From: a virus
Direction: 5' to 3' (one strand)
Length of the DNA stretch: 20,281 nucleotides
IMG/VR virus record: IMGVR_UViG_3300017708_002051
Span: 1-20,281 of that record
The notes under the pieces: generated by a model
Database searches by the model: none
What the model saw: only the letters and a program-made list of their open reading frames with translations
Told to the model about the DNA's origin: nothing
Shown: piece after piece, positions 1,193 through 19,775 of the stretch
Numbering within the stretch: the stretch's first letter is position 1
How the letters are laid out: every line of letters begins with the position of its first letter
Made by a program: the position numbers and the translations under genes

Positions 1193-2112
1193 AAGAAGAT
1201 TTATTAAAAAAATTATTAGAATCAATTTTAGGAAGAAGTAAATCTGCTCGTGGAGGAGATGAAGCTGTATTCAATTGTCCATCTTGTAATCATCATAAGA
1301 AAAAATTAACATTTAATTTAGCGTCTCAAAAATTCCAATGTTGGGTTTGTAATTATAAAGGTCATAGAGCTTTTCAATTACTTAAAAAAGCCAAAGCACC
1401 TACAGCAGCATACAGTGCTTTAAAAGAAATCGATCAACAATATAATTTTAAACAAAAAGTTAAACAAAAAGTAGACATTAATACTTTGCAATTTCCTCAG
1501 GGAGTAACGCCTATAATGTCGTCTTCAGCGATATTATCAAAACATGCCTTACATTATTTAGATCAAAGAGGAATAACCCAACAAGACGTAGTTAAATATG
1601 ATTTACATTATTGTGAACAAGGTCCCTTAAAAAATATGGTTGTAATACCTTCATATGATAAAGATGGTTTTTTAAATTATTATGTAGGTCGTTCATTTGA
1701 TAAAAACGCATATATTAAACATAAGTTGGCTTCCAGTACCAAGGACATAATTGGATTTGAAATGTATATAAACTGGGATTTACCCGTGATTTTATGTGAA
1801 GGTGCGTTTGATGCTATGGCTATAAAACGTAATGCGATTCCTTTGTTTGGAAAAAAATTATCTACAACCTTAATGAAAAAAATCATTAAATCTAATGTAA
1901 AAAAAATATATTTAGCTTTAGATGAAGACGCTTTAAAAGATGCTTTTAACCATGCTGAAACATTTATGTCTTATGGAAAACAAGTTTATCTTATAGAAAT
2001 GGGTGATAAAGATCCTTCTGAACTTGGTTTTAAAGCTTTCACAAAATTACTACACACTGCAACAGAACTTACTACTTCTACATTAATGAAGAAGAGGTTA
2101 GCCTTGTCATAA
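1189..2112 (+). CDS. DNA primase, zinc-finger plus Toprim (DnaG/T4 gp61-like)
   Basis: This 307-aa protein has a CHC2-like zinc ribbon with Cys30, Cys33, Cys51 and Cys54 (CPSC then CWVC), followed by a linker and a Toprim domain. The Toprim signature is complete: CEGAFDA at 203-209 (Glu204 and Asp208), an LDED acidic pair at Asp245 and Asp247, and a DPSELG segment in place of the usual KDPND-type motif. Such proteins synthesise the RNA primers for lagging-strand replication and work with a replicative helicase. The helicase-binding C-terminal region of bacterial DnaG is absent, as is usual for phage primases. The gene overlaps the upstream nuclease gene by four bases. A replication gene sitting beside virion genes is unlike T4. 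A single-subunit phage primase is the best call. Confidence 0.88.
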   Translation: MKEDLLKKLLESILGRSKSARGGDEAVFNCPSCNHHKKKLTFNLASQKFQCWVCNYKGHRAFQLLKKAKAPTAAYSALKEIDQQYNFKQKVKQKVDINTLQFPQGVTPIMSSSAILSKHALHYLDQRGITQQDVVKYDLHYCEQGPLKNMVVIPSYDKDGFLNYYVGRSFDKNAYIKHKLASSTKDIIGFEMYINWDLPVILCEGAFDAMAIKRNAIPLFGKKLSTTLMKKIIKSNVKKIYLALDEDALKDAFNHAETFMSYGKQVYLIEMGDKDPSELGFKAFTKLLHTATELTTSTLMKKRLALS

Positions 2113-2117
2113 AGGTT

Positions 2118-2126
2118 TATATTTAT
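2118..2126 (+). promoter_or_regulatory. Candidate phage late promoter -10 element TATATTTAT
   Basis: TATATTTAT lies in the 32-base gap before the 1043-aa gene. The identical 9-mer recurs in the gap before the gene at 16785. It resembles a variant of the T4-type late element TATAAATA. No matching upstream -33 TTG is visible at the spacing expected for Bacteroidota sigma factors. This is an inference from recurrence in gaps within an AT-rich genome. Confidence 0.35.
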
Positions 2127-2131
2127 TACAA

Positions 2132-2143
2132 AACTACGTAGTT
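2132..2143. promoter_or_regulatory. Perfect 12-bp palindrome just before a start codon
   Basis: AACTACGTAGTT is a perfect inverted repeat that ends one base before the ATG at 2145, where a ribosome must load. It could be a protein-binding operator or a small hairpin in the mRNA leader. The gap before 16785 also contains a perfect palindrome between its TATATTTAT element and the start codon. Confidence 0.4.
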
Positions 2144-2144
2144 G

Positions 2145-5100
2145 ATGGAAAAGATAGCACTTTTACCTGGTGGATTTAAACCACCTCATGCAGGTCATTA
2201 TAATATGGCTAAATGGCTTATATCAAATACTGATGCAGACACTGTTATAGTTAAAGTTGGAGTAAAAATAAGAGATGGTATTAATCGTGAAGTAGCCCTT
2301 AAATTATGGGATCTTTATAGATCTACAGATCCTAACCCAATATCTAAAAAAATAGCTATTTTAGCTTCAAATTCAAATTCTCCAGTACAAGATGTATATG
2401 ATTTTATAGAAAAAGAAGCACCTGAAGGATCTAAAATTTATTTAGGAATGGGAGAAAAAGATGTAAATGATAAACGTTTTAATAATATAGGAAAATTTGC
2501 AGAACCTAAAGGAATTAATTTTGAAATTAAATTAGTACCTCCACAAACAGGAGGTATATCAGGTACTGAAATGAGAAATTTTGTAAAAATTAAAGATAAA
2601 GATAATTTTTTAAAATATATTCCTGATCATTTATCAAAATCAAATAAAGATAAAGCTTGGGGTATAGTAACAGGTTTAGAAGAAGATTTATATAATCCAG
2701 AAGATAAAGTTTTAGATTATATGAGAAGTAGTGAATTTAAAGCAGGAATGCCTGATGGTCCTAAGGATGATAAAACTTCTCCTGTTATAAAATATCAAAG
2801 AGGAGGAATGTATAATGCAGCTTCAGGACAAGGAGGAGCAGGAACGATGTATGAAAATAAATATTATTTAAGTAATAGTAATATTCAAGGACAAGGAGCA
2901 TTTGCTCAAGAAAATTATCCTGAAGGAACTGTAATAGATAAATTACATGATATCTTAGGACAAGGACAATATAATTTTTATGAATTAGGAAAAATGTATA
3001 ACCATTCAGAAACTCCTAATTGTAAAAATATAATGAAAAATAATACTCGATATTTAGTAACAATTCAACCTGTAAAACAAGGAGAAGAACTTACAGCAGA
3101 TTATAGACTACAACCTGATTTAGAACAACCTGAACATTTTTTAAATGAATTGGATAAATCAGATTTAAAATCAATAGATACTTATGCAGATAAACAATTG
3201 GATCCTTTTGATGTAGTATTAACTGATAAACATTTTTTTAATAGATTAAATGATCCTCGTAATGATAAAGAAATATCAAATGCTGAATTAATAGGGTTTT
3301 TTAAACGTTTAGCTAAAAAGAAAAAAGAATTATTTAATTTTTTAACTAAATATAAAGAAATAGTAGCATCAGATATTAGAACAAATATTAATATACCTTT
3401 TTTAAAACAAGCAGATAAAATAATTGCTAAAACAATTTTAAGAAAAAAAGATTTTCAAACATCTAATCCTCAATTATCATTAGAAAGAGATTTATCAGAT
3501 AAAGAAGAAAAAATAGCACAAGAATTACCAGATAAAGAATTTAAAAAACGTTATGGTAAGGATTGGAAGTCAGTTAAAATAGCTACAGCAACTAAAATGG
3601 CTAAAAATGAGGGTGATACTTACGAAAAAATGGCTGCCAAAGGTAAGAAAAAAGGCAATCTAAAACAAGGCACTGTAAGAAAAAGACTTAAAATTAAAGA
3701 CGGAGAAAAAATTCCTTTATCTAAAATAACTAAAGCTATTTCAAAGATAAAGAAAATGAAAAATCCAAGTGAAAAAAATAAAAAATATCTTAAAGCCCTA
3801 AATTTAGCTAAAACATTAAAAACAACTACTCATAAAGAAAACATCAATGAAGCAGATCCTAAAAAAGGAACAGGTAAAAAACCAAAAGGATCAGGAAGAA
3901 GATTATACACAGACGAAAACCCAAAAGACACAGTTAAAGTTAAATTCTCAACTAGACAAGATATAGTAGACACTTTAAATAAAGCTTCATTTAAAAGTAA
4001 ATCTCATAAACGTCAATCCCAAGTTATAAATTTAATTCACCAAAGAGTTAGAGCAGCATTAGGTAGAGCAAAAGATCCAGCTGTTAAAAAACGTTTAAAA
4101 TCTGCTTTTGAATATATTAAAAAACGTAAAGAAGCATCTAAGAAAAAAACACAACGAATGAAAAATGAAAATGCATTCTCAAAAGATTGGTGGTCAAATA
4201 TAATAAATGAACATTTATTAGTAGAAGGGGGAGCAGCAGGACATATGGCTCATCCTTTTGATTTACAAAATGTAAAATCAGGTAGAGATCTTAAAAACAT
4301 ATTTACAGCAGCTGCAACTTCTCTAAATACAAATCCAGGATCTGTAAAAATAGATGGTGTTAATGCATCAATTCGTTTAATTACTTTAGACGGAGTAAAA
4401 CAATTTGTAATGGATAGAGGTTCTAAAAAAGAACTTGACATTAAAGGTATTACAAAAGATGACTTATCAAGTCGATTTGGTGAAGGTCATGGAATGATTA
4501 AAATAGGAGGAGAAGTACTAGATATGTTTAATACAGCATTGCCCCAAATAGAAAATGATCTTAAAGCTTTAGGTGCTTGGGAAGACCCAAATATATTATT
4601 TAATATGGAATATGTTAGTGGTAAAACTAATGTACAAGATTATGGTTCTAATTTTATAGCAATTCATGGTTTAAATAGGATAGAAAGTAAAGAAGTACAA
4701 GGTAAAAGAAAAATGTTAACTAAAAGAATATCATCAGAAATATCTTACAATAAATCAGCTTTACAATCAATGTTAGATAATTTATCTCCAACAGCTAAAA
4801 AACAAGGATTTAAAGTTTATGGTTCTGTCCCTACAGAAATGAAGAAAAAACCTAATTTTAATTCTGCACTTTCTCAAAATTATTCTGTAGAATTTACTGA
4901 AGAAGTAAAAACTCAACCTTTAAGTAAATGGCTAGATGAAGTAAGCGCAATTCCTAAGGATGAGTTTATATTTATAACAAGAGATAATATTAAGAAAAAA
5001 GTAGGAGCTGTTTCTAAACAGGTTTATCAACTAATTTTAAATAGAGAAAATGTTGATGATTTGTTTAATGATAGTGATAAGAAAAAAGCCATTGATGGGT

Positions 5101-5276
5101 TTGTAACTTATCTAGCAACTGAAAAATTAGGAGATGAAGTACTTAAAGTATTAGATTCACCAATGGGTTCAGTTGAAGATCATGAAGGAGTAGTAATTAG
5201 AGATGAAAAAATAGCGAGTGTACCCTTTAAAATAACGGGTAAATTTATATTAGGAGGATTAATATCAGATTTTTAA
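2145..5276 (+). CDS. Mosaic polyprotein: HxGH nucleotidyltransferase, SET domain, basic modules, ligase-like domain
   Basis: This is a 1043-aa multidomain protein. Residues 1-170 form an HxGH nucleotidyltransferase fold of the NMN adenylyltransferase/cytidylyltransferase superfamily, with GGFKPPHAGH at 9-18 and ISGTEMR at 138-144. Residues 236-330 form a SET domain, with GQGAFA, NHSETPNC at 286-293 and GEELTADY at 313-320. Residues 363-447 (starting HFFNRLNDPRN) and 465-560 (RYGKDW, then TVRKRLKIKDGEKIPLS) are lysine-rich modules of unknown function that I recall from marine phages. Residues 570-694 are extremely basic. Residues 695-1043 carry ligase-like motifs: K735-I-D-G, Glu822-Tyr, EGVVIR at 1014-1019, and lysines 1029 and 1033. 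INE/A at 567-570 and LVE/G at 692-695 fit the T4 prohead protease cleavage rule at module borders. The ATG at 2145 was chosen over the TTG one codon upstream. Domain calls are good; function and processing are inferred. Confidence 0.8.
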   Translation: MEKIALLPGGFKPPHAGHYNMAKWLISNTDADTVIVKVGVKIRDGINREVALKLWDLYRSTDPNPISKKIAILASNSNSPVQDVYDFIEKEAPEGSKIYLGMGEKDVNDKRFNNIGKFAEPKGINFEIKLVPPQTGGISGTEMRNFVKIKDKDNFLKYIPDHLSKSNKDKAWGIVTGLEEDLYNPEDKVLDYMRSSEFKAGMPDGPKDDKTSPVIKYQRGGMYNAASGQGGAGTMYENKYYLSNSNIQGQGAFAQENYPEGTVIDKLHDILGQGQYNFYELGKMYNHSETPNCKNIMKNNTRYLVTIQPVKQGEELTADYRLQPDLEQPEHFLNELDKSDLKSIDTYADKQLDPFDVVLTDKHFFNRLNDPRNDKEISNAELIGFFKRLAKKKKELFNFLTKYKEIVASDIRTNINIPFLKQADKIIAKTILRKKDFQTSNPQLSLERDLSDKEEKIAQELPDKEFKKRYGKDWKSVKIATATKMAKNEGDTYEKMAAKGKKKGNLKQGTVRKRLKIKDGEKIPLSKITKAISKIKKMKNPSEKNKKYLKALNLAKTLKTTTHKENINEADPKKGTGKKPKGSGRRLYTDENPKDTVKVKFSTRQDIVDTLNKASFKSKSHKRQSQVINLIHQRVRAALGRAKDPAVKKRLKSAFEYIKKRKEASKKKTQRMKNENAFSKDWWSNIINEHLLVEGGAAGHMAHPFDLQNVKSGRDLKNIFTAAATSLNTNPGSVKIDGVNASIRLITLDGVKQFVMDRGSKKELDIKGITKDDLSSRFGEGHGMIKIGGEVLDMFNTALPQIENDLKALGAWEDPNILFNMEYVSGKTNVQDYGSNFIAIHGLNRIESKEVQGKRKMLTKRISSEISYNKSALQSMLDNLSPTAKKQGFKVYGSVPTEMKKKPNFNSALSQNYSVEFTEEVKTQPLSKWLDEVSAIPKDEFIFITRDNIKKKVGAVSKQVYQLILNRENVDDLFNDSDKKKAIDGFVTYLATEKLGDEVLKVLDSPMGSVEDHEGVVIRDEKIASVPFKITGKFILGGLISDF

Positions 5277-6841
5277 TGAAGAAAAAAGACATAATAAAAT
5301 TAGTACAAGAAACAGTACAAGAAGTTAAATCAGACGCTTATGGTAGTGCTACTTTAACATCTCAAGGACAGTCTATTCATAGAGCTCCAGGAGTATGGGA
5401 ATTCAAACAACCAAAATTATTTGATCCAGACACTATTAATTTAGTTAGAGATATGTTATCTATGGCAGATGTACACCATAATGAACTTGTTGGAGGATAC
5501 GATGAAGTTTCTTCATATTTAGACAAAAGATCAGGTGGAACATTTATTAAATTTCCCCATTTTAATGGCCCTCAAGGTAGAGGAGCAATGTTTGGAAAAG
5601 AAACGGTAAACAAAATTAATCGTTCTAAAGCAGCAGCAAAAGCAGCAGCACTTAAAACATACACTCAATTTAAAACATACATAGAAGATTATGAAATATC
5701 AGATGCATCTCCAGCAGGTGTTTATGGTAATGTTTATTTATTTCTAATGTTTAATGATTTAGCAAAAGATTATACATCACCAAAAGGAGGAACACAATCA
5801 TCTCAATTTGAAGAAAATGAAAAGCTTAATGAACACAACCAACGTGCTAAAGAATTAGCAGATAGTTATTCAATTAAAGAATTGCAAAATCGTTTAGATC
5901 AAATTTATAGAGAAATGGAACAAGAAGCTGAACCAGAAGGGGGACCTATAGCAGACATGTATGCAGATGAAATACAATCATATGAAGACGCTATTAATAT
6001 GGCTAAAAGAAATTCAGTTAAACCATTAACTTATGGTCAAGCAACAGGACAAGAACCATTACCTGATGGAAGTTATTTAGATAAAGATGGAAATAAAACA
6101 ACAGTATCTCCAAATAAAGACACATTTACTAAATCTTCAAAATTTGATAAATTAAAAGAACAAACACCACCTGCAAAAGGAGGTGAAACTCCTGCAAAAG
6201 GAGGATCAGCACCCCCAATGGATGCTGATGCAAGAGCTGAAAAAAAAGAATTAGAAAATTTAGAAAAAGAAAAATTTAATATAAGAATAAAATATTTAAA
6301 TAGAAAAAAAGCAAAAGCATCGGCACAAGCTGCAAAACAATCAAGCGGTGCTATTAAAAATATCCAAAAACAAGTAGACCAATTAATACAACAAAGAAGC
6401 AAAGTGGGAACAACACCCCCAGCTTCACCACAAAAAGAAAACAAAATTATGAAAACAAACAAATTATTATCTGATTACTTAAAAGAAAATAAAAGTAACA
6501 ATTTAAAATCAAATTTAAGTGAGCATAAAAAATTAGCAAGAAGACAAATGTTAATGGAAGGTGCTTTAAAACAATTTTTTGAATACTTTGATGAAGGTCA
6601 AACAGACGAAGAAGTAGTTCAACTTTATGCTCAAAAAGGAGTTAATGTTCCAGAAACTTTTGTAAAAAAAGCAAGAAGTCAATATGAAAATCTTACAAAG
6701 TTAAAAATGGAATTAGAAATGAGTGAAAAAGAATTTAAAAACTCAGCTTCTAATATTGTAAATAATCCAGTAACAGGAGAAGCAGATATGTTAGATGATG
6801 ATAAACAATTAGCATCTGCGATCACTTCAGAAGAAATATAA
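5276..6841 (+). CDS. Phage mosaic protein with conserved C-terminal module, probable capsid-associated precursor
   Basis: This 521-aa protein starts with the A of the upstream stop codon (TAATG), so the two genes are probably translationally coupled. Its N-terminus, MKKKDIIKLVQETVQEV, is a short amphipathic basic helix like those on several other proteins here. Residues up to about 170 are Ala/Lys-rich and may fold. Residues 270-390 are low complexity, with a PAKGG repeat and charged coiled-coil-like stretches. From Met392 the sequence looks like a separate module: another leader-like segment, an exact LME/G match to the gp21 cleavage rule at 426-429, then a compact domain with FDEGQTDEEVVQLYAQKGV and an NIVNNPVTGEAD tail that I recall from other marine phages. 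No enzyme motif is visible. A virion or prohead-core role is inferred from context. Confidence 0.6.
   Translation: MKKKDIIKLVQETVQEVKSDAYGSATLTSQGQSIHRAPGVWEFKQPKLFDPDTINLVRDMLSMADVHHNELVGGYDEVSSYLDKRSGGTFIKFPHFNGPQGRGAMFGKETVNKINRSKAAAKAAALKTYTQFKTYIEDYEISDASPAGVYGNVYLFLMFNDLAKDYTSPKGGTQSSQFEENEKLNEHNQRAKELADSYSIKELQNRLDQIYREMEQEAEPEGGPIADMYADEIQSYEDAINMAKRNSVKPLTYGQATGQEPLPDGSYLDKDGNKTTVSPNKDTFTKSSKFDKLKEQTPPAKGGETPAKGGSAPPMDADARAEKKELENLEKEKFNIRIKYLNRKKAKASAQAAKQSSGAIKNIQKQVDQLIQQRSKVGTTPPASPQKENKIMKTNKLLSDYLKENKSNNLKSNLSEHKKLARRQMLMEGALKQFFEYFDEGQTDEEVVQLYAQKGVNVPETFVKKARSQYENLTKLKMELEMSEKEFKNSASNIVNNPVTGEADMLDDDKQLASAITSEEI
6170..6204 (+). repeat. Short in-frame tandem repeat, 21-base period
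   Basis: The 14-mer CCTGCAAAAGGAGG occurs exactly at 6170-6183 and again at 6191-6204, giving a seven-codon period that encodes the PAKGG repeats in the linker of the 521-aa protein. This looks like slippage-type expansion of a flexible linker, not a regulatory element. Confidence 0.75.
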
Positions 6842-7171: not shown

Positions 7172-7650
7172 TGGAAAATCTTAAAAATAAAATTTTAAAA
7201 GAATTAATCAGACTTACCGAGAGAGATTACCAAGCTCCCCCTGAAATTCTTGATGCTTTAAAAGAAAAACTTAAAATGAATCCTTTAATTCGTTATGTTG
7301 ATTCTTTAAAAGCAGTTAATTCTTTACCCCCATCATATGAAGTTCGTCTTTTAAATGGACAATCTTTTAGTATTTATTACGAAGATTTTTCTTTAATGGT
7401 TAAAATTGGATCTAAAGAGTATTACTTAATGGATATAAGTGAAAGGAATGGAGCAATAGAACATATTAATAAATTATTAACTATAAAACCAGTTCCTTCA
7501 TTTACATCACCCGAAGAAGAAACAGAAGAAACAGGAGAAACAACAGGTGGAACAACACCTTCACCAGGAGCAGGAGATCCTAATGTTGCAATGGAACCTG
7601 ATGATGAAGAAGAAGAACCAGAAGAGGAAGAAGCAGAAGAAGAAGTATAA
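7171..7650 (+). CDS. Unknown phage protein with amphipathic N-terminal helix and acidic C-terminal tail
   Basis: This 159-aa protein has three visible parts. The first is an N-terminal amphipathic helix (MENLKNKILKELIRLTERD). The second is a folded middle of roughly 75 residues with alternating hydrophobic positions (YEVRLLNGQSFSIYYEDFSL). The third, from about residue 113, is a Glu/Thr/Gly/Pro-rich tail ending in a nearly pure run of Glu and Asp. A longer frame could start at a TTG at 7150, but the ATG at 7171 overlaps the previous stop as TAATG and fits the pattern of neighbouring genes. The stop in turn overlaps the next start as TAATG. Acidic tails occur in prohead core and scaffold proteins and in proteins that neutralise basic partners, but no specific function can be assigned. 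Confidence 0.6.
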   Translation: MENLKNKILKELIRLTERDYQAPPEILDALKEKLKMNPLIRYVDSLKAVNSLPPSYEVRLLNGQSFSIYYEDFSLMVKIGSKEYYLMDISERNGAIEHINKLLTIKPVPSFTSPEEETEETGETTGGTTPSPGAGDPNVAMEPDDEEEEPEEEEAEEEV

Positions 7651-8027
7651 TGGAATTAAAAGAGGCCCTAGGAGAAATATTTAAAACAGCAAGGGAAGAA
7701 TTTGGAATACAAAACTCCCCTAAACTTCATTTAAGACAAGATGAAGAAAACGCCCAAGGCATCTTTGGTAAAACAGCTTATTATGATCCAACAGATCAAT
7801 CTATTGTATTATACATAACAAACAGACATCCAAAGGATATTTGTAGATCTTTTGCACATGAATTAGTACATCATCACCAAAATGAAAGAGGTGATTTAGA
7901 ATTAGGAGATGCATCTCAAGCAACTTATGCACAAGATGATCCTCATATGAGAAAAATGGAAATGGAAGCATATTTAAAAGGCAATCTACTTTTTAGAGAT
8001 TGGGAAGACAAAGTAAAAAACCAATAA
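7650..8027 (+). CDS. Small HExxH zinc metalloprotease-like protein
   Basis: This 125-aa protein carries a clear zincin motif, SFAHELVHHHQ, with His70 and His74 as zinc ligands and Glu71 as the catalytic base. About 30 residues downstream, KMEMEAY offers Glu104 or Glu106 as a third, gluzincin-type ligand. The protein is little more than a minimal peptidase domain and has no signal peptide or membrane anchor, so it should act in the cytoplasm or within the virion. The surrounding sequence (YYDPTDQSIVLYITNRHP before the motif) matches the strand-then-active-helix order of small phage and M78-like metalloproteases. Translational overlap (TAATG) links it to the acidic-tailed protein upstream, and the fibre gene follows after three bases. 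Substrates are unknown. Candidates are virion maturation or a host target. Confidence 0.72.
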   Translation: MELKEALGEIFKTAREEFGIQNSPKLHLRQDEENAQGIFGKTAYYDPTDQSIVLYITNRHPKDICRSFAHELVHHHQNERGDLELGDASQATYAQDDPHMRKMEMEAYLKGNLLFRDWEDKVKNQ

Positions 8028-10924: not shown

Positions 10925-10960
10925 CTGTGGCCTCCAATTTGGTAGCCACAGTTTTTTTTT
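10925..10960 (+). terminator. Strong Rho-independent terminator after the holin gene
   Basis: CTGTGGC (10925-10931) pairs perfectly with GCCACAG (10945-10951). A second inner pairing, CCA with TGG, lies across an ATT loop. The stem is followed at once by nine T residues (10952-10960). This is a textbook intrinsic terminator for + strand transcription and the clearest transcription boundary in the window. The 50 bases before it hold only a weak GTTCG/CGAAC hairpin and an AT palindrome. Confidence 0.92.
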
Positions 10961-10986
10961 GTACGTTACCACAAAATCAGCAAAGT

Positions 10987-12444
10987 ATGAATAATGTAGT
11001 AATCGTAGGAGCCGGAGTTGCCGGTGTAAATGCAGCAACAAAATTAGTAGACAACAATTTTAAAGGAAATATTACTATTATTGATATGGGTTTAGATCCA
11101 TATCGTAGACCAGCAGCAGACGTAATGAGAGGTTTTTTAGGAGCAGGTGGTTGGTCAGATGGTAAATTAACTTATCACACATCCATAGGTGGTCATCTAT
11201 CAAAATACACAGGCGAAGAAAAAGCCATGGAATTGATGGATCAAGTTATTGAGAATTTTAAACGATTTCATCCTAAACCAGAAGAAGTACAATGTTCAAA
11301 TCCAGTAGATGAACCTGAATTTATTAAACCACATTTTGGTTTACGCTTATTCCCTGTATGGCATGTTGGAACTGATTATCTACATGAAATTGGTAAGAAT
11401 TGGTACGATTATTTAGTAGAAAAAGGTGTAGAATTTATATGGGAAACTAAAGTAACAGATATTGATTTTGATAAAAAAATAGTAAAATATTCAGAAATTA
11501 ATGCACACGCAGATTACTGTTGGGAAAGTTATGATACACTTATATTTGGAGTAGGTAAATCAGGAATTGATTTTGCAAAATCATTATCTGAAGATTATGA
11601 ATTACCTACAGAACCAAAACCAGTACAAATTGGTGTACGTTTTGAAGCACCACAAAAACACTTTCAAAAGTTAATTGATATTGCCTATGATTTTAAATTA
11701 TACAGAAAATTTGATGCTGAAGGTGTATCATTAAGATCATTTTGTACAAATAACAATGCAGCTTACGTAGCAGCTGAACATACTTATGGTGATATTAGTT
11801 ATAATGGTCATGCTAAAAAAGATAAAAAATACGAAAATGGTATGACTAATTTTGGTATTTTAATGGAAATTAAGGGTATAAAAGAACCTTTTAATTGGGC
11901 AAGAGAAGCAGTAAAGAAAATGCAAGTAGATGGTAAAGGAACATTTTATTCTCCTAGTCATAGGGTACCTTCAAAAACAACAGAAGGGGATTATGTAGAA
12001 ACTAAAGTAGTAGAAAATTTAGAACCTTTATATGAAGCAATAGGAAATTATGCTATTTATATTCAAGATTTTATCCATGATATGGAAAAAATATTTCCAA
12101 CATTAGGTAAAGATTGGGGGATTTATATGCCCGAAGTAAAATATTTAGCACCAGAACCATTAGTAAATTATAAAGATTTAAGTCTTACTAGGTTTCCTGA
12201 TGTACATTTTGTAGGTGATGCATTATCAGCAAGAGGCATTACAGTGTCAGGAGCTCAAGGAACATTAGTAGCAGAACAAATATTATCAATGAGTAAAGCT
12301 ATAGATGATTTTTTAGAACATGCAGACAAACCAGGACCTTGGTCTGAAGAAGATGATAAAATTCATACTGTAGGAGGTTTAACTAATGATAAAGAAGGAT
12401 CATTTATGAAATTTCAAAATAAAATTAATAAACATGGCAAATAA
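10987..12444 (+). CDS. FAD-dependent oxidoreductase, COG2509-like
   Basis: This 485-aa protein has an N-terminal dinucleotide-binding fold, VVIVGAGVAG with GxGxxG at residues 8-13, then GAGGWSDGKLT at 52-62. Mid-protein it has RSFC with Cys253, followed by AAEHTYG and SYNGHAKKD. Near the C-terminus is the second FAD-contacting segment, VGDALSARGITVSGAQG with Asp411. This order (SDGKLT, then an SFC segment, then an NG segment, then GDA) is characteristic of the uncharacterised FAD-dependent dehydrogenases of COG2509. A longer frame could start at a GTG at 10927, but that lies inside the terminator hairpin, so the ATG at 10987 was chosen. It is the first gene after the terminator and overlaps the next gene by 11 bases. 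It looks like a cargo or auxiliary metabolic gene. The substrate is unknown; the flavoprotein call is strong. Confidence 0.85.
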   Translation: MNNVVIVGAGVAGVNAATKLVDNNFKGNITIIDMGLDPYRRPAADVMRGFLGAGGWSDGKLTYHTSIGGHLSKYTGEEKAMELMDQVIENFKRFHPKPEEVQCSNPVDEPEFIKPHFGLRLFPVWHVGTDYLHEIGKNWYDYLVEKGVEFIWETKVTDIDFDKKIVKYSEINAHADYCWESYDTLIFGVGKSGIDFAKSLSEDYELPTEPKPVQIGVRFEAPQKHFQKLIDIAYDFKLYRKFDAEGVSLRSFCTNNNAAYVAAEHTYGDISYNGHAKKDKKYENGMTNFGILMEIKGIKEPFNWAREAVKKMQVDGKGTFYSPSHRVPSKTTEGDYVETKVVENLEPLYEAIGNYAIYIQDFIHDMEKIFPTLGKDWGIYMPEVKYLAPEPLVNYKDLSLTRFPDVHFVGDALSARGITVSGAQGTLVAEQILSMSKAIDDFLEHADKPGPWSEEDDKIHTVGGLTNDKEGSFMKFQNKINKHGK

Positions 12445-12748: not shown

Positions 12749-13276
12749 ATGAAAATAGGATTTTGTGGAACAATGAGTGTAGGAAAAACTACACTAGTAA
12801 ATGCATTAAAAGAATTACCTGAATTTAAAGACTATCATTTTAGAACAGAACGTTCTAAACATTTAATGGATTTAGGAATACCTTTAAATATGGATAGTAC
12901 ATTAAAAGGACAATTAGTTTTTGCTTCTGAAAGAGCAGTTGAATTAATGCAAGAAAAAATAATAACTGATAGAACAGTTATTGATGTTATGGCATTTTGT
13001 GATTTATCTGAATCAATGGAAGATCATGAAAAATTTTATTTAAATGCTTCTTTATATTATTTAATAGATGAATATGATATTTTATTTTATGTTAGTCCTG
13101 AAGGAGTAGAAATAGAAGATAATGGTATTAGAGAAACAAACGCAGAATATAGAACAGCAGTTGATAAAAAAATAAAAACAATTATACAAATGTATAAAAG
13201 TAATACTATTACTATTAAAGGAACTGTAGAAGAACGTATAAAACAAGTCAAAAATGCAGTAGCTCAATATGTATAA
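12749..13276 (+). CDS. P-loop NTPase of the AAA_28/NadR-like kinase family
   Basis: This 175-aa protein starts directly with a strand and Walker A loop, MKIGFCGTMSVGKTT, with the P-loop at residues 7-14. A downstream TDRTVIDVMAF segment near residues 72-82 is typical of AAA_28 and NadR-type kinases, where the Asp lies in a Walker B or lid-proximal position. The length fits a stand-alone kinase domain. The family includes the ribosylnicotinamide kinase half of NadR as well as uncharacterised phage ATPases, so the substrate could be a nucleoside, nicotinamide riboside or something else. It is the third gene of the small accessory cassette after the terminator and lies eight bases before the terminase gene. 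No Shine-Dalgarno sequence is seen. The fold is well supported; the NAD-related role is inference, made more attractive by the NMNAT-like domain encoded at 2145. Confidence 0.75.
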   Translation: MKIGFCGTMSVGKTTLVNALKELPEFKDYHFRTERSKHLMDLGIPLNMDSTLKGQLVFASERAVELMQEKIITDRTVIDVMAFCDLSESMEDHEKFYLNASLYYLIDEYDILFYVSPEGVEIEDNGIRETNAEYRTAVDKKIKTIIQMYKSNTITIKGTVEERIKQVKNAVAQYV

Positions 13277-13284
13277 TATATAAT

Positions 13285-14877
13285 ATGGCACAACCAAACA
13301 TTAAACAAGCAATAAAGCAAGAGTATATTAAATGTGCTAAGGATCCTGTATACTTTATGAAAAAATATTGTTTTATTCAACACCCAACAAGAGGTCGTGT
13401 TCAATTTAATCTTTATCCCTTTCAAGAAGCTACATTAAAATTACTACAAAAACATGATAGAAGTATTATTCTTAAGTCTCGTCAGTTAGGTATTTCTACT
13501 TTATCCGCAGGTATTTCATTATGGATGATGATATTTCAAAAAGATAAATCTATACTTGTAGTTGCAACAAAACAAGACACAGCAAAAAACTTAGTAACAA
13601 AGGTAAAATTTATGTATGATGAATTACCTTCATGGTTACAAATTGGGTTTACAGAAAACAATAAATTAGCATTACGTCTAAAAAATGGTTCTCAAATTAA
13701 AGCAGTATCTGCAGCAAGTGATGCTGGTAGATCAGAAGCAATTTCTTTATTGATTATTGATGAGGCTGCCTTTATTGAAACAAACAAAATAGATGAAATT
13801 TGGGGTTCGTCACAACAAACATTATCAACGGGGGGTAGAGCAATCGTTTTATCTACACCAAATGGAACAGGTAATTTCTTTCATAAAATGTGGACTAAAG
13901 CAGAAGAAGGAACTAACGGATTTATCCCTATTAAATTACACTGGTCAGTACACCCAGAAAGAAACCAAGCATGGAGAGATAAACAAGATGATGAATTAGG
14001 TTTAAGAATGGCTGCACAAGAATGTGATTGTGATTTTACAACATCAGGACACACAGTTTTTGAAAATGAACTTATGAAATTTATTGAAGAAACTAATATA
14101 TGTGCTCCTTTAGAAAAAAGAGGTATAGAAGGAGGATTACACATTTGGGAATATCCAGATTATACAAGAAAATATATAATAACAGCCGATGTAGCTAGAG
14201 GTGATAGTAAAGATTATTCTGCTTTTCATATTATTGATATAGAAGAATCTAAACAAATTGGTGAATTTAAAGGTCAAATTGGTACTAAAGAATTTGGTCA
14301 TATGTTAGTTGCAATGGCAACTGAATATAATAATGCTTTATTAGTAATTGAAAATGCTAATATAGGATGGAATACTATTCAAGTAGTAATAGATAAAGGT
14401 TATAATAATTTGTATTATTCACCTAAAGGGGAAGCAGCAACAAATGCAGATGCATTTTTAGCTAAAGGATATGATATAACAGACACAACTAAAATGGTTC
14501 CTGGTTTTACAATGTCAATGAAAACAAGACCATTAGTAATAGGAAAATTAGATGCATACTTAAAAGATAAAGCAATTACTATTCAAGGAAAAAGAACATT
14601 AGAAGAAATGAAAACTTTTATATGGTTAAATGGAAAACCAGAAGCCCAAATCGGATATAATGATGATTTAGTAATGTCTTTAGCAACAGCATGTTATGTA
14701 AGAGACACAGCACTTAAATTTGCCCAACAAGGATTAGATATGACAAGAGCTACAGTATCAAATTGGCAACGAGAAACTACTCCAGGTATTTATACAGGAG
14801 GTATGGGTAAGAAAAACACGGGTTGGACACAAGATTTAGGAGAACAAGGAGAACAGGATTTAACTTGGCTTCTTTAA
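13285..14877 (+). CDS. terL: Terminase large subunit, T4 gp17-like
   Basis: This 530-aa protein has the two-domain packaging motor layout. The N-terminal ATPase has a Walker A variant KSRQLGIST at residues 64-72 (compare the SRQLGKT type of gp17) and Walker B LLIIDEAA with Asp159 and Glu160. A coupling motif, VLSTPNG, follows. The C-terminal RNase H-like nuclease shows Asp302 in ADVARGDSKDYSAF, Glu356 in VIENANIGW and an Asp460-Asp461 pair in GYNDDLVMSLA. The enzyme docks on the portal vertex, cuts concatemeric DNA and drives it into the prohead. It lies immediately upstream of the portal gene. No small terminase subunit is recognised in the window. The ATG at 13285 has an AT-rich leader without a Shine-Dalgarno sequence. 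All catalytic residues appear intact. Confidence 0.95.
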   Translation: MAQPNIKQAIKQEYIKCAKDPVYFMKKYCFIQHPTRGRVQFNLYPFQEATLKLLQKHDRSIILKSRQLGISTLSAGISLWMMIFQKDKSILVVATKQDTAKNLVTKVKFMYDELPSWLQIGFTENNKLALRLKNGSQIKAVSAASDAGRSEAISLLIIDEAAFIETNKIDEIWGSSQQTLSTGGRAIVLSTPNGTGNFFHKMWTKAEEGTNGFIPIKLHWSVHPERNQAWRDKQDDELGLRMAAQECDCDFTTSGHTVFENELMKFIEETNICAPLEKRGIEGGLHIWEYPDYTRKYIITADVARGDSKDYSAFHIIDIEESKQIGEFKGQIGTKEFGHMLVAMATEYNNALLVIENANIGWNTIQVVIDKGYNNLYYSPKGEAATNADAFLAKGYDITDTTKMVPGFTMSMKTRPLVIGKLDAYLKDKAITIQGKRTLEEMKTFIWLNGKPEAQIGYNDDLVMSLATACYVRDTALKFAQQGLDMTRATVSNWQRETTPGIYTGGMGKKNTGWTQDLGEQGEQDLTWLL

Positions 14878-14898: not shown

Positions 14899-16746
14899 AT
14901 GGCAGACATTAGTATTTTCACAAGATTAAAACGGTTATTTTCAAATGACGTTATTATTCGTAACGTTGGAGGAAAACAACTTAAAATCATGGACACAGGT
15001 AGGATCCAAAAATATGGAAACCTAGCTACAAATTCACTTTACGATAGATTTACTCGTATGCATAAACCTGTAGGATCTTCCCTACAATATAACCCTACGT
15101 TAAATTATCAGTCAATGCGACTACAGCTTTATAGTGATTATGAAGCTATGGATCATGATCCTATTATTGCATCAGCTTTAGATATTATAAGTGATGAAAC
15201 AACTACAAGAAACGAATATGGGGATGTTTTAAAAGTAAATTCTTCAGATGAAAATGTTAGAAAAGTATTACATAATTTATTTTATGATGTTTTAAATATA
15301 GAATTTAATTTAGCTACATGGGTTAGAAATATGTGTAAATATGGAGACTTTTATTTAAAAATGGAAGTATCTGAAAAATTTGGTGTTTATAATGTTATAC
15401 CTTTATCTGTATATGAAGTAGTAAGAGAAGAAGGAACAGATCCCGACAACCCATCTTATACTCGTTTTACAATGGATCCAAATGGTTTAGCTAGTGGAGC
15501 AACTAACACAATTAGACGAGATCAATTTACATTAGAAAATTATGAAGTTGCCCATTTTAGATTACTTACAGATTCTAATTATCTTCCTTATGGTAGATCT
15601 TATTTAGAACCATCTCGTAAAGTATTTAAACAATTAATGTTAATGGAAGATGCTATGTTAATTCATAGAATTATGAGAGCACCTGAAAAAAGAATATTTT
15701 ATGTAAATGTAGGATCTATTGAATCTTCACAGATAGAAACATTCATGAAACAAACCATGAATAAAATGAAAAAAACACCTCATATAGATCAATCTACTGG
15801 TGATTATAATATGAAATTTAATGTTCAAAACATGACAGAAGATTTCTATATACCTGTTAGAAATAATGATACATCAACTCGTATTGATACTACTAAAGGT
15901 TTAGATTATGATGGTACAACAGACATCGAGTATTTAAAAAATAAAATGATGGCTGCTTTAAAAATTCCTAAACCATTTTTAGGTTATGAGGAAGGAGTAG
16001 AAGGAAAATCAACATTAGCAGGTATGGATATTCGTTTTGCTCGTACAGTTGAACGTGTTCAAAGAATTATAGAATCAGAATTAACTAAAATTGCATTAGT
16101 ACATTTATATTCACAAGGTTTTAGTGATGAAAAGTTAATCGATTTTTCACTACAATTAACTACACCATCAATTATTTATGAACAAGAAAAAGTTGAATTA
16201 TATACTTCAAAAACAGCAGTAGCTCAACAAATGTTAGATGGTAAAATAATGAGTAAAGATTGGGTTTATGAAAATGTATTTGGATTATCACCTGATCAAT
16301 ATAACCAACAAAAAGAAGAAATGCTTGAGGATGCAATGGATAAATTTAGATTAGCACAACTTGAGAATGAAGGAAATGACCCACAAGAATCAGGTGTTTC
16401 TTATGGTACTCCACATGATTTAGCTTCATTATATGGTAATAAAAGAGATAAATCAGTAGGACCAGCCCAAGTCCCAACAGGATATGATGAAAAAGATCCT
16501 GGTCGTCCAATAGAAAGACCTCAAAGATATCAATCTGATAAAAGTAATTTTAGTAGAGACCCATTAGGAAAAACAGGATTATCACCAGATAGAGTAGAAA
16601 AATTATCAGATGGAAATAAAGTTTCTACACTTGAAGTAGCAAATATAAAAAAATCCCTTCAAAAAATAAAAAACAAAAAACAAATTTTAAAAGAAGAAAA
16701 TAATAAAGGGATGTTATCTGAAAAAAATATTAAGCCTCAAGAATAG
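14899..16746 (+). CDS. 20: Portal vertex protein, T4 gp20-like
   Basis: This 615-aa protein is within the usual range for T4-type portals. The most telling block is near residues 250-272 (LMLMEDAMLIHRIMRAPEKR, then FYVNVG), the conserved clip and wing signature of gp20. It is preceded by YGRSYLEPSRKVFKQ and followed by a KTPHIDQSTGDYN segment. The last roughly 130 residues are hydrophilic and variable, as in marine relatives. The portal forms the dodecameric ring at one capsid vertex, nucleates prohead assembly and is the docking site for terminase and later the neck. It sits 21 bases after the terminase gene. T4 has sheath and tube genes 18 and 19 between these two, and they are absent here. 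The identification is secure. Confidence 0.94.
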   Translation: MADISIFTRLKRLFSNDVIIRNVGGKQLKIMDTGRIQKYGNLATNSLYDRFTRMHKPVGSSLQYNPTLNYQSMRLQLYSDYEAMDHDPIIASALDIISDETTTRNEYGDVLKVNSSDENVRKVLHNLFYDVLNIEFNLATWVRNMCKYGDFYLKMEVSEKFGVYNVIPLSVYEVVREEGTDPDNPSYTRFTMDPNGLASGATNTIRRDQFTLENYEVAHFRLLTDSNYLPYGRSYLEPSRKVFKQLMLMEDAMLIHRIMRAPEKRIFYVNVGSIESSQIETFMKQTMNKMKKTPHIDQSTGDYNMKFNVQNMTEDFYIPVRNNDTSTRIDTTKGLDYDGTTDIEYLKNKMMAALKIPKPFLGYEEGVEGKSTLAGMDIRFARTVERVQRIIESELTKIALVHLYSQGFSDEKLIDFSLQLTTPSIIYEQEKVELYTSKTAVAQQMLDGKIMSKDWVYENVFGLSPDQYNQQKEEMLEDAMDKFRLAQLENEGNDPQESGVSYGTPHDLASLYGNKRDKSVGPAQVPTGYDEKDPGRPIERPQRYQSDKSNFSRDPLGKTGLSPDRVEKLSDGNKVSTLEVANIKKSLQKIKNKKQILKEENNKGMLSEKNIKPQE

Positions 16747-17630: not shown

Positions 17631-18093
17631 TCTTTTAGATATATATAATATAAAAGAATCTTCTTTTAGTGAATTAAAAAAAGATAGAAATCCCGCTAGA
17701 GGAAATAAAGGCAAAACAGATGCAAAAGATTATTATCTTGTAGATGAACCTGCAGATTCAGAAACAGGATCAGTAAAGTCTAAAGTAGTATATAAACGTT
17801 CTTTTGGTAAAATGGTAGCAGATTTAGAAGCAGAAGCAATTGATTTTAAAAAACTATCAGATGAAAACTCAGATGATATGGTATTATATAATTTATCTGA
17901 AGAATTAAAAGAATTATATAATAAATTTAGGACACATGTTAGAAAAAAGTATCCTGAAGAATATAAAAAAATACAAGAAAAAGAAATAGATGAAGCTAAC
18001 GTAACAGGAACAGGAGCTTCGTTTAGTGCAGGAAATAGTATGACTTATGCTACACCTTTTGCATTTAAAAAAAAACGTAAAAAAGAAAACTAA
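17623..18093 (+). CDS. Unknown small protein next to the prohead protease, probable capsid-targeted or core protein
   Basis: This 156-aa hydrophilic protein begins MVSLLDIYNIKESSFSELKK, then has a charged helical middle (KMVADLEAEAIDFKKLSDEN, then an ELKELYNKF stretch). An IDE/A match to the prohead protease cleavage rule lies at residues 122-125. After it come 32 residues, ANVTGTGASFSAGNSMTYAT followed by a Phe/Lys-rich end, a tail type I recall from capsid-linked marine phage proteins. The start lies eight bases inside the preceding gene, so translation is probably coupled. No enzyme motif is seen. Location between gp20 and gp21, plus a plausible gp21 site, suggests that it enters the prohead and is trimmed. 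The role is inference; the gene itself is secure. Confidence 0.6.
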   Translation: MVSLLDIYNIKESSFSELKKDRNPARGNKGKTDAKDYYLVDEPADSETGSVKSKVVYKRSFGKMVADLEAEAIDFKKLSDENSDDMVLYNLSEELKELYNKFRTHVRKKYPEEYKKIQEKEIDEANVTGTGASFSAGNSMTYATPFAFKKKRKKEN

Positions 18094-18094
18094 T

Positions 18095-18715
18095 ATGTTA
18101 TTACAAGAATATAGACCCTTTCAAGTAGATAAACAACTAGCAGAACAAGCTATTAAAGCAAATAAACCTTTAGTAGTATCTGGTATTTTACAACGAGCTG
18201 AAGCTAAAAACCAAAATGGTAGAGTTTACCCTACAGAAATTTTAAAAAGAGAAGTTAAAGAATATATGAAAGGTCCAGTAGCTGAAAATAGAGCAATGGG
18301 AGAATTAGATCATCCAGAATCATCAGTGATTAATTTACAAAATGTCTCTCACACAATTAAAAGATGTTGGTGGGAAGGAGATGATGTAATGGGTGATGTA
18401 GAAATATTAAGTACACCTGCAGGAAATATATTAAAAGCATTATTTGCAGCTGGTATTACAGTTGGTATTTCATCTCGTGGTATGGGTTCAGTAAAAGAAA
18501 ACATGATGGAAGGTACAGTTGAAGTACAAGATGATTTTGAATTATTATGTTGGGATTTTGTTTCAACACCATCTACACATGGGGCATTTATGGCACCTAA
18601 AACTAATGTAAGTCTTAATGAAATTAAAAATAAGTTACCTGAATATAAATACACCAATGTAAATAATATTGTGCGTGATATCTTATGTGACAATACAGGT
18701 GTTTGTAGATTATAA
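18095..18715 (+). CDS. 21: Prohead core maturation protease, T4 gp21-like
   Basis: This 206-aa serine protease is of the herpesvirus-assemblin-like fold used by T4 gp21. VSGILQRAEAKNQNGRVYP near residues 29-47 is the usual N-terminal signature. ELDHPE at 70-75 supplies the catalytic His73, and VGISSRG at 123-129 supplies the nucleophile (Ser126 or Ser127). DFVSTPSTHGAFM closes the conserved core. The enzyme sits inside the prohead and cleaves scaffold, core and internal proteins, classically after (I/L)-x-E, once assembly is complete. An ATG at 18047 in the same frame would add 16 residues and overlap the upstream gene by 47 bases. The ATG at 18095, just after the previous stop, gives an N-terminus (MLLQEYRPFQVD) that fits the family. 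This protease is the key partner for the proposed polyprotein sites. Confidence 0.92.
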   Translation: MLLQEYRPFQVDKQLAEQAIKANKPLVVSGILQRAEAKNQNGRVYPTEILKREVKEYMKGPVAENRAMGELDHPESSVINLQNVSHTIKRCWWEGDDVMGDVEILSTPAGNILKALFAAGITVGISSRGMGSVKENMMEGTVEVQDDFELLCWDFVSTPSTHGAFMAPKTNVSLNEIKNKLPEYKYTNVNNIVRDILCDNTGVCRL

Positions 18716-19199: not shown

Positions 19200-19775
19200 A
19201 TGTTAAAAAAAGAATTTAAAAAAAGAGATGTAAATAGAGCTCGTAATTTAATTATGGGTAAAACTGACGCATCTACAGGTACACAAATAGGTTTTAAAAA
19301 AAAACAAAAAGATTATAAGGAAGGTGATGTTTGGACAGAAGGAAGAAAAACATGGACTATTAAAAATGGTATAAAACAAACTATTTCTAAATTAGATGTA
19401 ATTAAAAAAGAAGTATTTATGCCTTTATGTTGCCCTGAGTGTAACAAAGTAATGAAAAAACGTTTAGATAAACCCCACTATAAAATACATAAAAAATGTT
19501 ATGATTGTGTTATTGATTATGAAGGTAAATTAATAGTTAGAGGGACATATGATGATTACATAAAACAATTAAAAGGTAAAAATAATATTGATATTCTAAA
19601 TGAATTAGAATCAACTTTATTATCTGCAGTAAATACATCTAATTCAAATTTTGTATCAGAAGATGGTGTTATTGAAAAATGGGTAGGAGGTATAAATAAA
19701 GACAAATTCTCTAAAGAAATTAAAACAGCAGCTAAAGCTAAAAGAGAATATATAAATAAACAATTAAATGACTAA
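19200..19775 (+). CDS. Zinc-ribbon protein of unknown function
   Basis: This 191-aa basic protein has a four-cysteine ribbon. CPEC supplies Cys78 and Cys81, with an additional Cys77, and HKKCYDC supplies Cys100 and Cys103. About 18 residues separate the pairs, with a nearby His in PHYKIHKK. The N-terminal part (KKRDVNRARNLIMGKTDAST, then KEGDVWTEGRKTWTIKNGIK) is a conserved block I recall from marine phages, where its role is unassigned. The C-terminal part is helical. Zinc ribbons of this kind bind nucleic acid or stabilise protein contacts in transcription factors, primases and packaging proteins. It starts with an ATG nine bases after the preceding stop and overlaps the next gene by eight bases. 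A nucleic-acid role is possible, but the position in the prohead cluster also permits a structural one. Confidence 0.65.
   Translation: MLKKEFKKRDVNRARNLIMGKTDASTGTQIGFKKKQKDYKEGDVWTEGRKTWTIKNGIKQTISKLDVIKKEVFMPLCCPECNKVMKKRLDKPHYKIHKKCYDCVIDYEGKLIVRGTYDDYIKQLKGKNNIDILNELESTLLSAVNTSNSNFVSEDGVIEKWVGGINKDKFSKEIKTAAKAKREYINKQLND

Follow-up and report, generated by a model that had tools for sequence, protein, structure and literature searches.

A ligase-like nucleotidyltransferase domain at a candidate prohead-protease junction in an adenylyltransferase-linked phage polyprotein

In bacteriophage T4 the prohead protease gp21 cuts at the motif L/I-X-E, where the leaders that target the T4 internal proteins to the capsid are also removed, the leader of IPIII being 10 residues long (PMC9026906). 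NMNAT-like proteins have been detected by mass spectrometry in the virions of the cyanophages S-SCSM1 (ORF91; PMC9602691), S-CREM2 (ORF154; PMC10665884) and S-SZBM1 (S-SZBM1_140, NMNAT-like/cytidylyltransferase; PMC9146016), and S-CBWM1 has been cited for a likewise virion-detected NMNAT-like protein (PMC10665884). Here we describe a gene on a viral DNA of 20,281 nucleotides (IMG/VR record IMGVR_UViG_3300017708_002051, positions 1 to 20,281; the window, meaning the whole stretch analysed) which joins an adenylyltransferase domain of this kind to a C-terminal ligase-like domain that begins directly after an L-x-E motif. With modest confidence, we favour the reading that the product is a multi-enzyme precursor, packaged in the phage head and cut by the prohead protease, which would deliver an Rnl1-like, AMP-dependent ligase at infection, most likely for RNA repair.

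The polyprotein-like gene (2145 to 5276, 1043 residues) lies on the + strand, as do all of its features and the terminase, portal and protease genes discussed below. It was taken to start at the ATG at 2145, the program-made list of open reading frames (ORFs) beginning at TTG 2142; with this numbering GGAAGHM begins at residue 695 and the lysine of KIDGVN is residue 735, and positions 4227 to 5276 translate as a single open frame of 349 residues and a stop. Literature searches, which lay largely outside subscription papers and bioRxiv preprints, gave no recognisable description of the ligase-like family, and it is not described in the available parts of PMC9503650, PMC5512222 and PMC7824862. 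Relatives were collected by two scans of viral contigs, using the best 80 of at least 437 relatives with the domain as query and the best 80 of 457 with the alignment as query, so that distant members are under-sampled; genome contigs contributed four loci (L082 to L085), and annotated phages contributed Microcystis phage Mel-JY01 and two uncultured phages of 462 and 484 kb. The 150 loci gave 91 distinct junctions, or 90 after L083 was dropped for having fewer than eight residues upstream. Neighbourhoods were counted in 89 fetched loci, genome content was checked in 13 larger records of relatives, and middle domains were tallied by Pfam in 40 proteins (the window protein and 39 of 47 non-redundant long ORFs).

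Catalytic motifs and predicted fold of the ligase-like domain

The ligase-like domain (residues 695 to 1043; 4227 to 5273) carries its motifs at the residues where the first-pass annotation, made from the sequence alone, had located them: motif I KIDGVN (4347 to 4364), with Lys735 as the candidate AMP acceptor; motif III Glu822, followed by Tyr823, in NMEYV (Glu822 at 4608 to 4610); motif IV EGVVIR (residues 1014 to 1019; 5184 to 5201); and motif V Lys1029 in FKITG (Lys1029 at 5229 to 5231). Eight positions were listed as invariant in an alignment of 27 sequences (A1; 52 to 77% identity to the window), namely, in domain numbering, K41 (K735), D43, G44, R64, E128 (E822), E320 (E1014), G321 and K335 (K1029). 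When the alignment was widened to 32 sequences, five of them only 18 to 23% identical to the window, 18 of the 349 positions were still invariant, among them K735, D737, G738, E822, E1014, G1015, V1017 (the second valine of motif IV), K1029, T1031 and G1032. The lysine, aspartate and glycine of KxDG motif I of the covalent lysyl-nucleotidyltransferase (ligase/capping) superfamily were thereby present in 32/32 sequences, as were the motif III and IV glutamates and the motif V lysine of that superfamily. The same annotation had named two motif V lysines, of which K1029 stood; position 1033 held K, R, S or T in the 27-sequence alignment, so that motif V has one lysine, with the pattern K-x-T-G. 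The N-terminal part of the domain carries a GHMxHPF block, and neither Pfam nor NCBIfam matched the NAD-binding Ia domain of NAD-dependent DNA ligases.

An AlphaFold model of the domain, built from the 27 sequences, had a mean pLDDT of 91.1. In its secondary structure a strand ends at K41, while E128, K335 and the motif from E320 to V323 lie on strands or adjoin them. In ligases the corresponding lysine, glutamate, glutamate motif and lysine have the same strand placement. RNA, tRNA and DNA ligases made up 49 of the 50 rows listed by VIA-align, and the first row was T4 Rnl1 (root-mean-square deviation 3.8, 18% identity), at a Z of 9.0 which, over 175 aligned of 349 residues, only slightly exceeds what unrelated models reach according to the tool's own note; the fold claim accordingly leans on the fold and the residues jointly. 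RNA and DNA ligases were also among the top rows of a Foldseek search of the PDB, and the nearest entries in BFVD were named SET domain-containing, cytidyltransferase-like or uncharacterized, with ligases lower down. The first-pass annotation had proposed that a predicted structure other than the nucleotidyltransferase fold would speak against it; VIA rows that are nearly all ligases give moderate support for that fold.

Profile comparison pointed in the same direction as the model. In unguided hhalign runs the wide family scored 31.3 against Rnl1, where the highest of 60 column shuffles scored 22.6 (0/60 reached the real score), and the alignment paired E128 (E822) with the catalytic glutamate E159 of Rnl1; a control run with the adenylyltransferase alignment did not beat its shuffles. 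Residue conservation, predicted fold and this unguided profile alignment together support the assignment of the domain to the ligase-type covalent nucleotidyltransferases, closest to T4 Rnl1, as the annotation had proposed in more general terms.

Several results pull the other way. Foldseek returned nothing under E 0.001 against the PDB, the hhalign probability with Rnl1 was just 4.8% to 11%, and the comparison with Rnl2, a ligase the annotation had suggested checking, did not beat its shuffles (11/60 reached the score). RNA_ligase PF09414 matched 5 of the 27 members, at best with an E of 0.023 and never at the curated cut-off. Motif V reads KxT in 32/32 sequences vs KxK in Rnl1, and the gene stops 14 residues past K1029, leaving out the C-terminal domain of known ligases. 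In the window domain itself PF09414 reached 12.4 bits vs a cut-off of 27, spanning motifs IV to V only, and PF09511 (Rnl1) gave no match at E up to 10. Pfam, PHROGs, NCBIfam and PADLOC gave the domain no name, and among PDB sequences no ligase was matched by either a single sequence or a profile. The start of the domain had been proposed to be part of a domain of unknown function (DUF), an idea that found no footing in Pfam, where no DUF is given for this stretch and no named family scored above its cut-off; the name 'DUF6267' was absent from the Pfam rows and the literature searched and was not used. Matches to a PHROG 'Arc-like repressor' (E 0.0095), to Spore_III_AB in Pfam and, for P0003, to Csx19 were judged to be due to chance. 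With no curated family at its cut-off and no typical C-terminal ligase domain, the domain appears to belong to a new, divergent family.

The missing C-terminal domain also bears on the reaction itself. With a conserved catalytic core and yet no C-terminal substrate domain, and with a long insertion separating motif IIIa from motif IV, the enzyme might modify a protein or the 5' end of an RNA with AMP (or GMP) and join no strands; families of capping enzymes and of protein AMPylators gave no match, however, and we regard such a transferase as quite unlikely. A head-carried enzyme of ligase fold could instead act on DNA, sealing nicks or joining ends of the injected genome, which is the first nucleic acid that it would meet, and DNA ligases do occur in the VIA rows (Z 5.6 to 7.3). 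RNA ligases nevertheless score higher there (Rnl1 9.0, a Naegleria ligase 7 to 8), the profile likeness is to Rnl1 and no OB-fold follows motif V, which makes a DNA-acting ligase an unlikely alternative to the Rnl1-like, RNA-directed enzyme that we favour.

The junction, the prohead protease and a proposed delivery in the phage head

The motif LVE (4218 to 4226) stands directly before GGAAGHMAHPFD, the start of the ligase-like domain, and would place a prohead-protease cut after residue 694. The motif was first noticed in an earlier set of 84 distinct junctions. Of the final 90, 82 had [LI]-x-E and 86 had [LIV]-x-E directly ahead of GG..GHM.HPF, the middle residue varying; when the set was dereplicated at 60% identity, 9 of 12 sequences still had the motif, against a background of 1.1% per position. 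Stand-alone versions of the domain carry leaders that end in the same way: one of them (L128) has a 10-residue leader with L-S-E at its end and GG next, and in five others (L215, L084, L041, L076 and L126) motif-terminated leaders of about 12 to 30 residues were read from assumed start codons.

A protease of the matching type is encoded downstream in the window. The prohead core protease gene (Peptidase_S77, T4 gp21 family; 18047 to 18715; Pfam E 8.6e-31) probably has its true start at an internal ATG near 18095, and an S77 prohead protease was found in 10 of the 13 larger records, the three misses being records of 55 to 74 kb that may be fragments. Two features of a head protein processed by gp21, an L/I-x-E at the site and a gp21-type protease in the same genome, are present, and the proposal that the ligase-like domain is freed by proteolysis, which the annotation had made, is supported at the level of sequence as a cleavage at this junction by the prohead protease.

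An ordinary late cytoplasmic enzyme, in which the LxE motifs are due to chance or are structural, is an alternative, and the middle region of the gene gives this some room: [LI]xE showed only a mild general enrichment in linkers and none over the reversed motif Ex[LI], which was at least equally common there, and we place weight on the exact ligase junction and not on the linkers. The literature examined also gave no virion data for the ligase-like family. Against a cytoplasmic enzyme stand the occurrence of the motif at one exact junction in 86/90 sequences with a variable P2, the leaders of the stand-alone versions, and the density of [LI]xE[AGS], which was 0.264 per 100 in the middle region vs 0.015 and 0.066 for the folded domains; we regard this explanation as unlikely. 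The surroundings could suggest a non-catalytic relative of ligases whose sole role is structural or that of a scaffold in the head, as the window encodes a T4-type terminase large subunit (TerL; 13285 to 14877; Pfam E 1.1e-14) and a T4-like portal protein (gp20; 14899 to 16746; Pfam E 2.7e-69), and among the 89 loci 26 had a TerL neighbour and 13 a portal neighbour. None of the four catalytic residues is lost even at 18 to 23% identity, however, and a purely structural part is in our judgement very improbable.

Under the favoured reading, the multi-enzyme precursor would be loaded into a T4-like phage head, where the head-maturation protease encoded downstream would cut after LVE and leave a free enzyme of 349 residues starting GGAAGHMAHPFD. 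Lys735 would accept AMP from ATP or NAD, with Glu822, Glu1014 and Lys1029 holding the nucleotide and metal, and the AMP would be handed to a 5'-phosphate end, which would then be sealed. The ligase would enter the cell alongside the genome and could act ahead of any phage gene expression, its likeliest task being the sealing of RNA cleaved by the host, such as tRNA, and the N-terminal NMNAT/PPAT-like domain may support the supply of nucleotide, perhaps NAD.

Delivery in the head has to be set against some observations that do not favour it. Four of the 90 junctions lacked the motif (L055, L121, L216 and L082, where the gene begins at that point), and the protease lay inside the fetched locus in just 2 of the 89 relatives' loci (L084 and L085). 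Translations of the S-SCSM1 and S-CREM2 NMNAT-like proteins and of two neighbouring virion proteins contained no ligase block, and carry-over of an abundant protein is an alternative named by the authors of those virion analyses (PMC10665884, PMC9602691). The S-SCSM1 and S-CREM2 proteins, as translated, have T4-like leaders ending F-L-x-E|A; virion proteins of this kind that have no ligase block back the packaging of the adenylyltransferase module and not that of the ligase.

The adenylyltransferase, the middle domains and neighbouring genes

The N-terminal domain (residues 1 to 171; 2145 to 2657) was modelled by AlphaFold with a pLDDT of 93.8, resembled CoaD and NadD in VIA (Z 13 to 14) and NadD/NadM in Foldseek (E down to 1.5e-5), and matched PDB profiles at an E of 1e-6; PF01467 was found in 26/26 members. 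It has both the fold and the SGTxxR motif of the HIGH superfamily, with HxGH intact in the window protein and GxHH in a freshwater-type subgroup. Archaeal NMNAT models matched 25/26 and 22/26 members at E up to 0.1, and PPAT and NadD tied in VIA, so that the domain is best described as a predicted HIGH-type adenylyltransferase, NMNAT/PPAT-like, the two activities being inseparable here. Adenylyltransferase and ligase shared one ORF in 66 of the 80 loci used from the first scan; of the other 14, 11 were cut by the end of the contig and three were stand-alone. One locus (L082) had the domains in reversed order and another (L215) had them in adjacent genes, a rearranged linkage which argues for a common role or a common route.

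Between these ends the window protein carries a SET domain match (residues 260 to 320; 2922 to 3104; Pfam E 1.7e-6, 28.8 bits vs a cut-off of 22.4; E 2.4e-4 to PBCV-1 vSET by phmmer against the PDB). Candidate prohead-protease sites from a motif scan lie behind the adenylyltransferase (LEE|D, after residue 180; 2676 to 2684), with comparable sites in relatives, and after residue 569 (INE|A; 3843 to 3851), in a context, [LI]xE|ADPK, that recurs in relatives. A Lys/Arg-rich spacer (3852 to 4226), read from the translation, connects the cargo to the ligase-like domain; it recurs in many relatives as 'ADPK.GTGKKPKGSGRRLYTDE...' and might serve to bind DNA or the core of the head. Among the 40 full-length proteins the middle domains were DUF192 in eight, SET in three, plastocyanin-type in two, DUF5661 in two, and Fe/Mn superoxide dismutase and DUF6973 in one each. 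A GNAT domain was found in one, C-terminal to the ligase, in L036, where a single chain (1434 to 5660 of that locus) also holds Fe/Mn superoxide dismutase and plastocyanin-type domains and where both the plastocyanin domain and the ligase are flanked on either side by candidate sites close to the domain boundaries.

A broader proposal, which we put forward tentatively and would sooner doubt than assume, is that of a widespread aquatic phage 'enzyme cassette' with constant adenylyltransferase and ligase ends and swappable cargo (SET methyltransferase, DUF192, superoxide dismutase, plastocyanin, GNAT) between or beside them, which would go into the head as a single chain, be split there into individual enzymes by the head protease and be injected jointly. 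In a bolder form of this proposal a putative NAD-using ligase would be served by the linked NMNAT, which would rebuild NAD from the released NMN. NadV was found in 1 of the 13 larger records; a complete route for NAD salvage is therefore not a general feature. Canonical RNA ligases were sought in the same records: PF09414 was present in 4/13 at E <= 0.001 (three over the cut-off) and PF09511 in 2/13. Simple replacement of a canonical RNA ligase is ruled out by relatives that carry both, and the separate canonical enzymes in several relatives suggest that the ligase-like domain acts at another time or on another substrate.

Other genes of the window were examined for relatives in the 89 loci. 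A 191-residue CxxC-containing (zinc-ribbon-like) protein (19200 to 19775) had relatives in 62/89, the most of the neighbours tested; a small metallopeptidase-like protein with weak Pfam matches and a HELVH motif (7650 to 8027) had relatives in 23/89, and such a gene also lies upstream of the ligase in L082. A 505-residue FAD/NAD(P) oxidoreductase-like protein in the late-gene region (10927 to 12444) had relatives in 7/89, and an AAA_28 ATPase (12749 to 13276; Pfam E 5e-13) had none in the 89. Nicotinamide riboside kinases belong to the AAA_28 family, and an enzyme of that sort would be in keeping with an NMNAT-like domain. A gene at 767 to 1192 encodes a SegE-like GIY-YIG endonuclease (Pfam E 2.1e-22), for which the PHROGs label 'NAD synthetase' looks wrong.

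Comparison with described systems

T4 Rnl1 (gp63; PF09511) shares with the ligase-like domain KxDG in motif I, E(F/Y)V in motif III, EGxV in motif IV and FK in motif V, in the same order, and it was both the top VIA match and the ligase whose profile score exceeded the shuffles. The phage domain differs from it in having no PF09511 match and no C-terminal domain, in its wider gap between motifs III and IV (192 vs 68), in its K-x-T where K240-x-K242 of Rnl1 was invariant in 20 sequences, in its fusion or adjacency to an adenylyltransferase and in the prohead-protease-like site at its start. The T4 internal proteins and Alt, which are processed by gp21 and injected (PMC9026906), resemble the family in the short leaders of its stand-alone versions and in the [L/I]-x-E cut motif; unlike it they are not ligase-like, and in the present family the motif is mostly found inside a long chain of several enzymes, at a junction. 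The polyvalent proteins of phages and plasmids also have swappable enzyme domains and are thought to be delivered to the host (Iyer et al. 2017, PMC5512222). The available part of that account describes no such ligase-like domain and no frame of NMNAT and ligase, and the linkers of the window gene are set apart by their candidate protease sites.

The NMNAT-like proteins of cyanophage virions are alike in being HIGH-type adenylyltransferases and in having been detected in the particle, and the favoured reading, if true, would offer an explanation for their recurrence there. The phage particle would then carry a ready-made enzyme for nucleic-acid repair or nucleotidyl transfer, active before phage gene expression and delivered as part of a protease-cut precursor with swappable cargo, and a large family so far named only cytidyltransferase-like, SET domain-containing or uncharacterized would gain a testable function.

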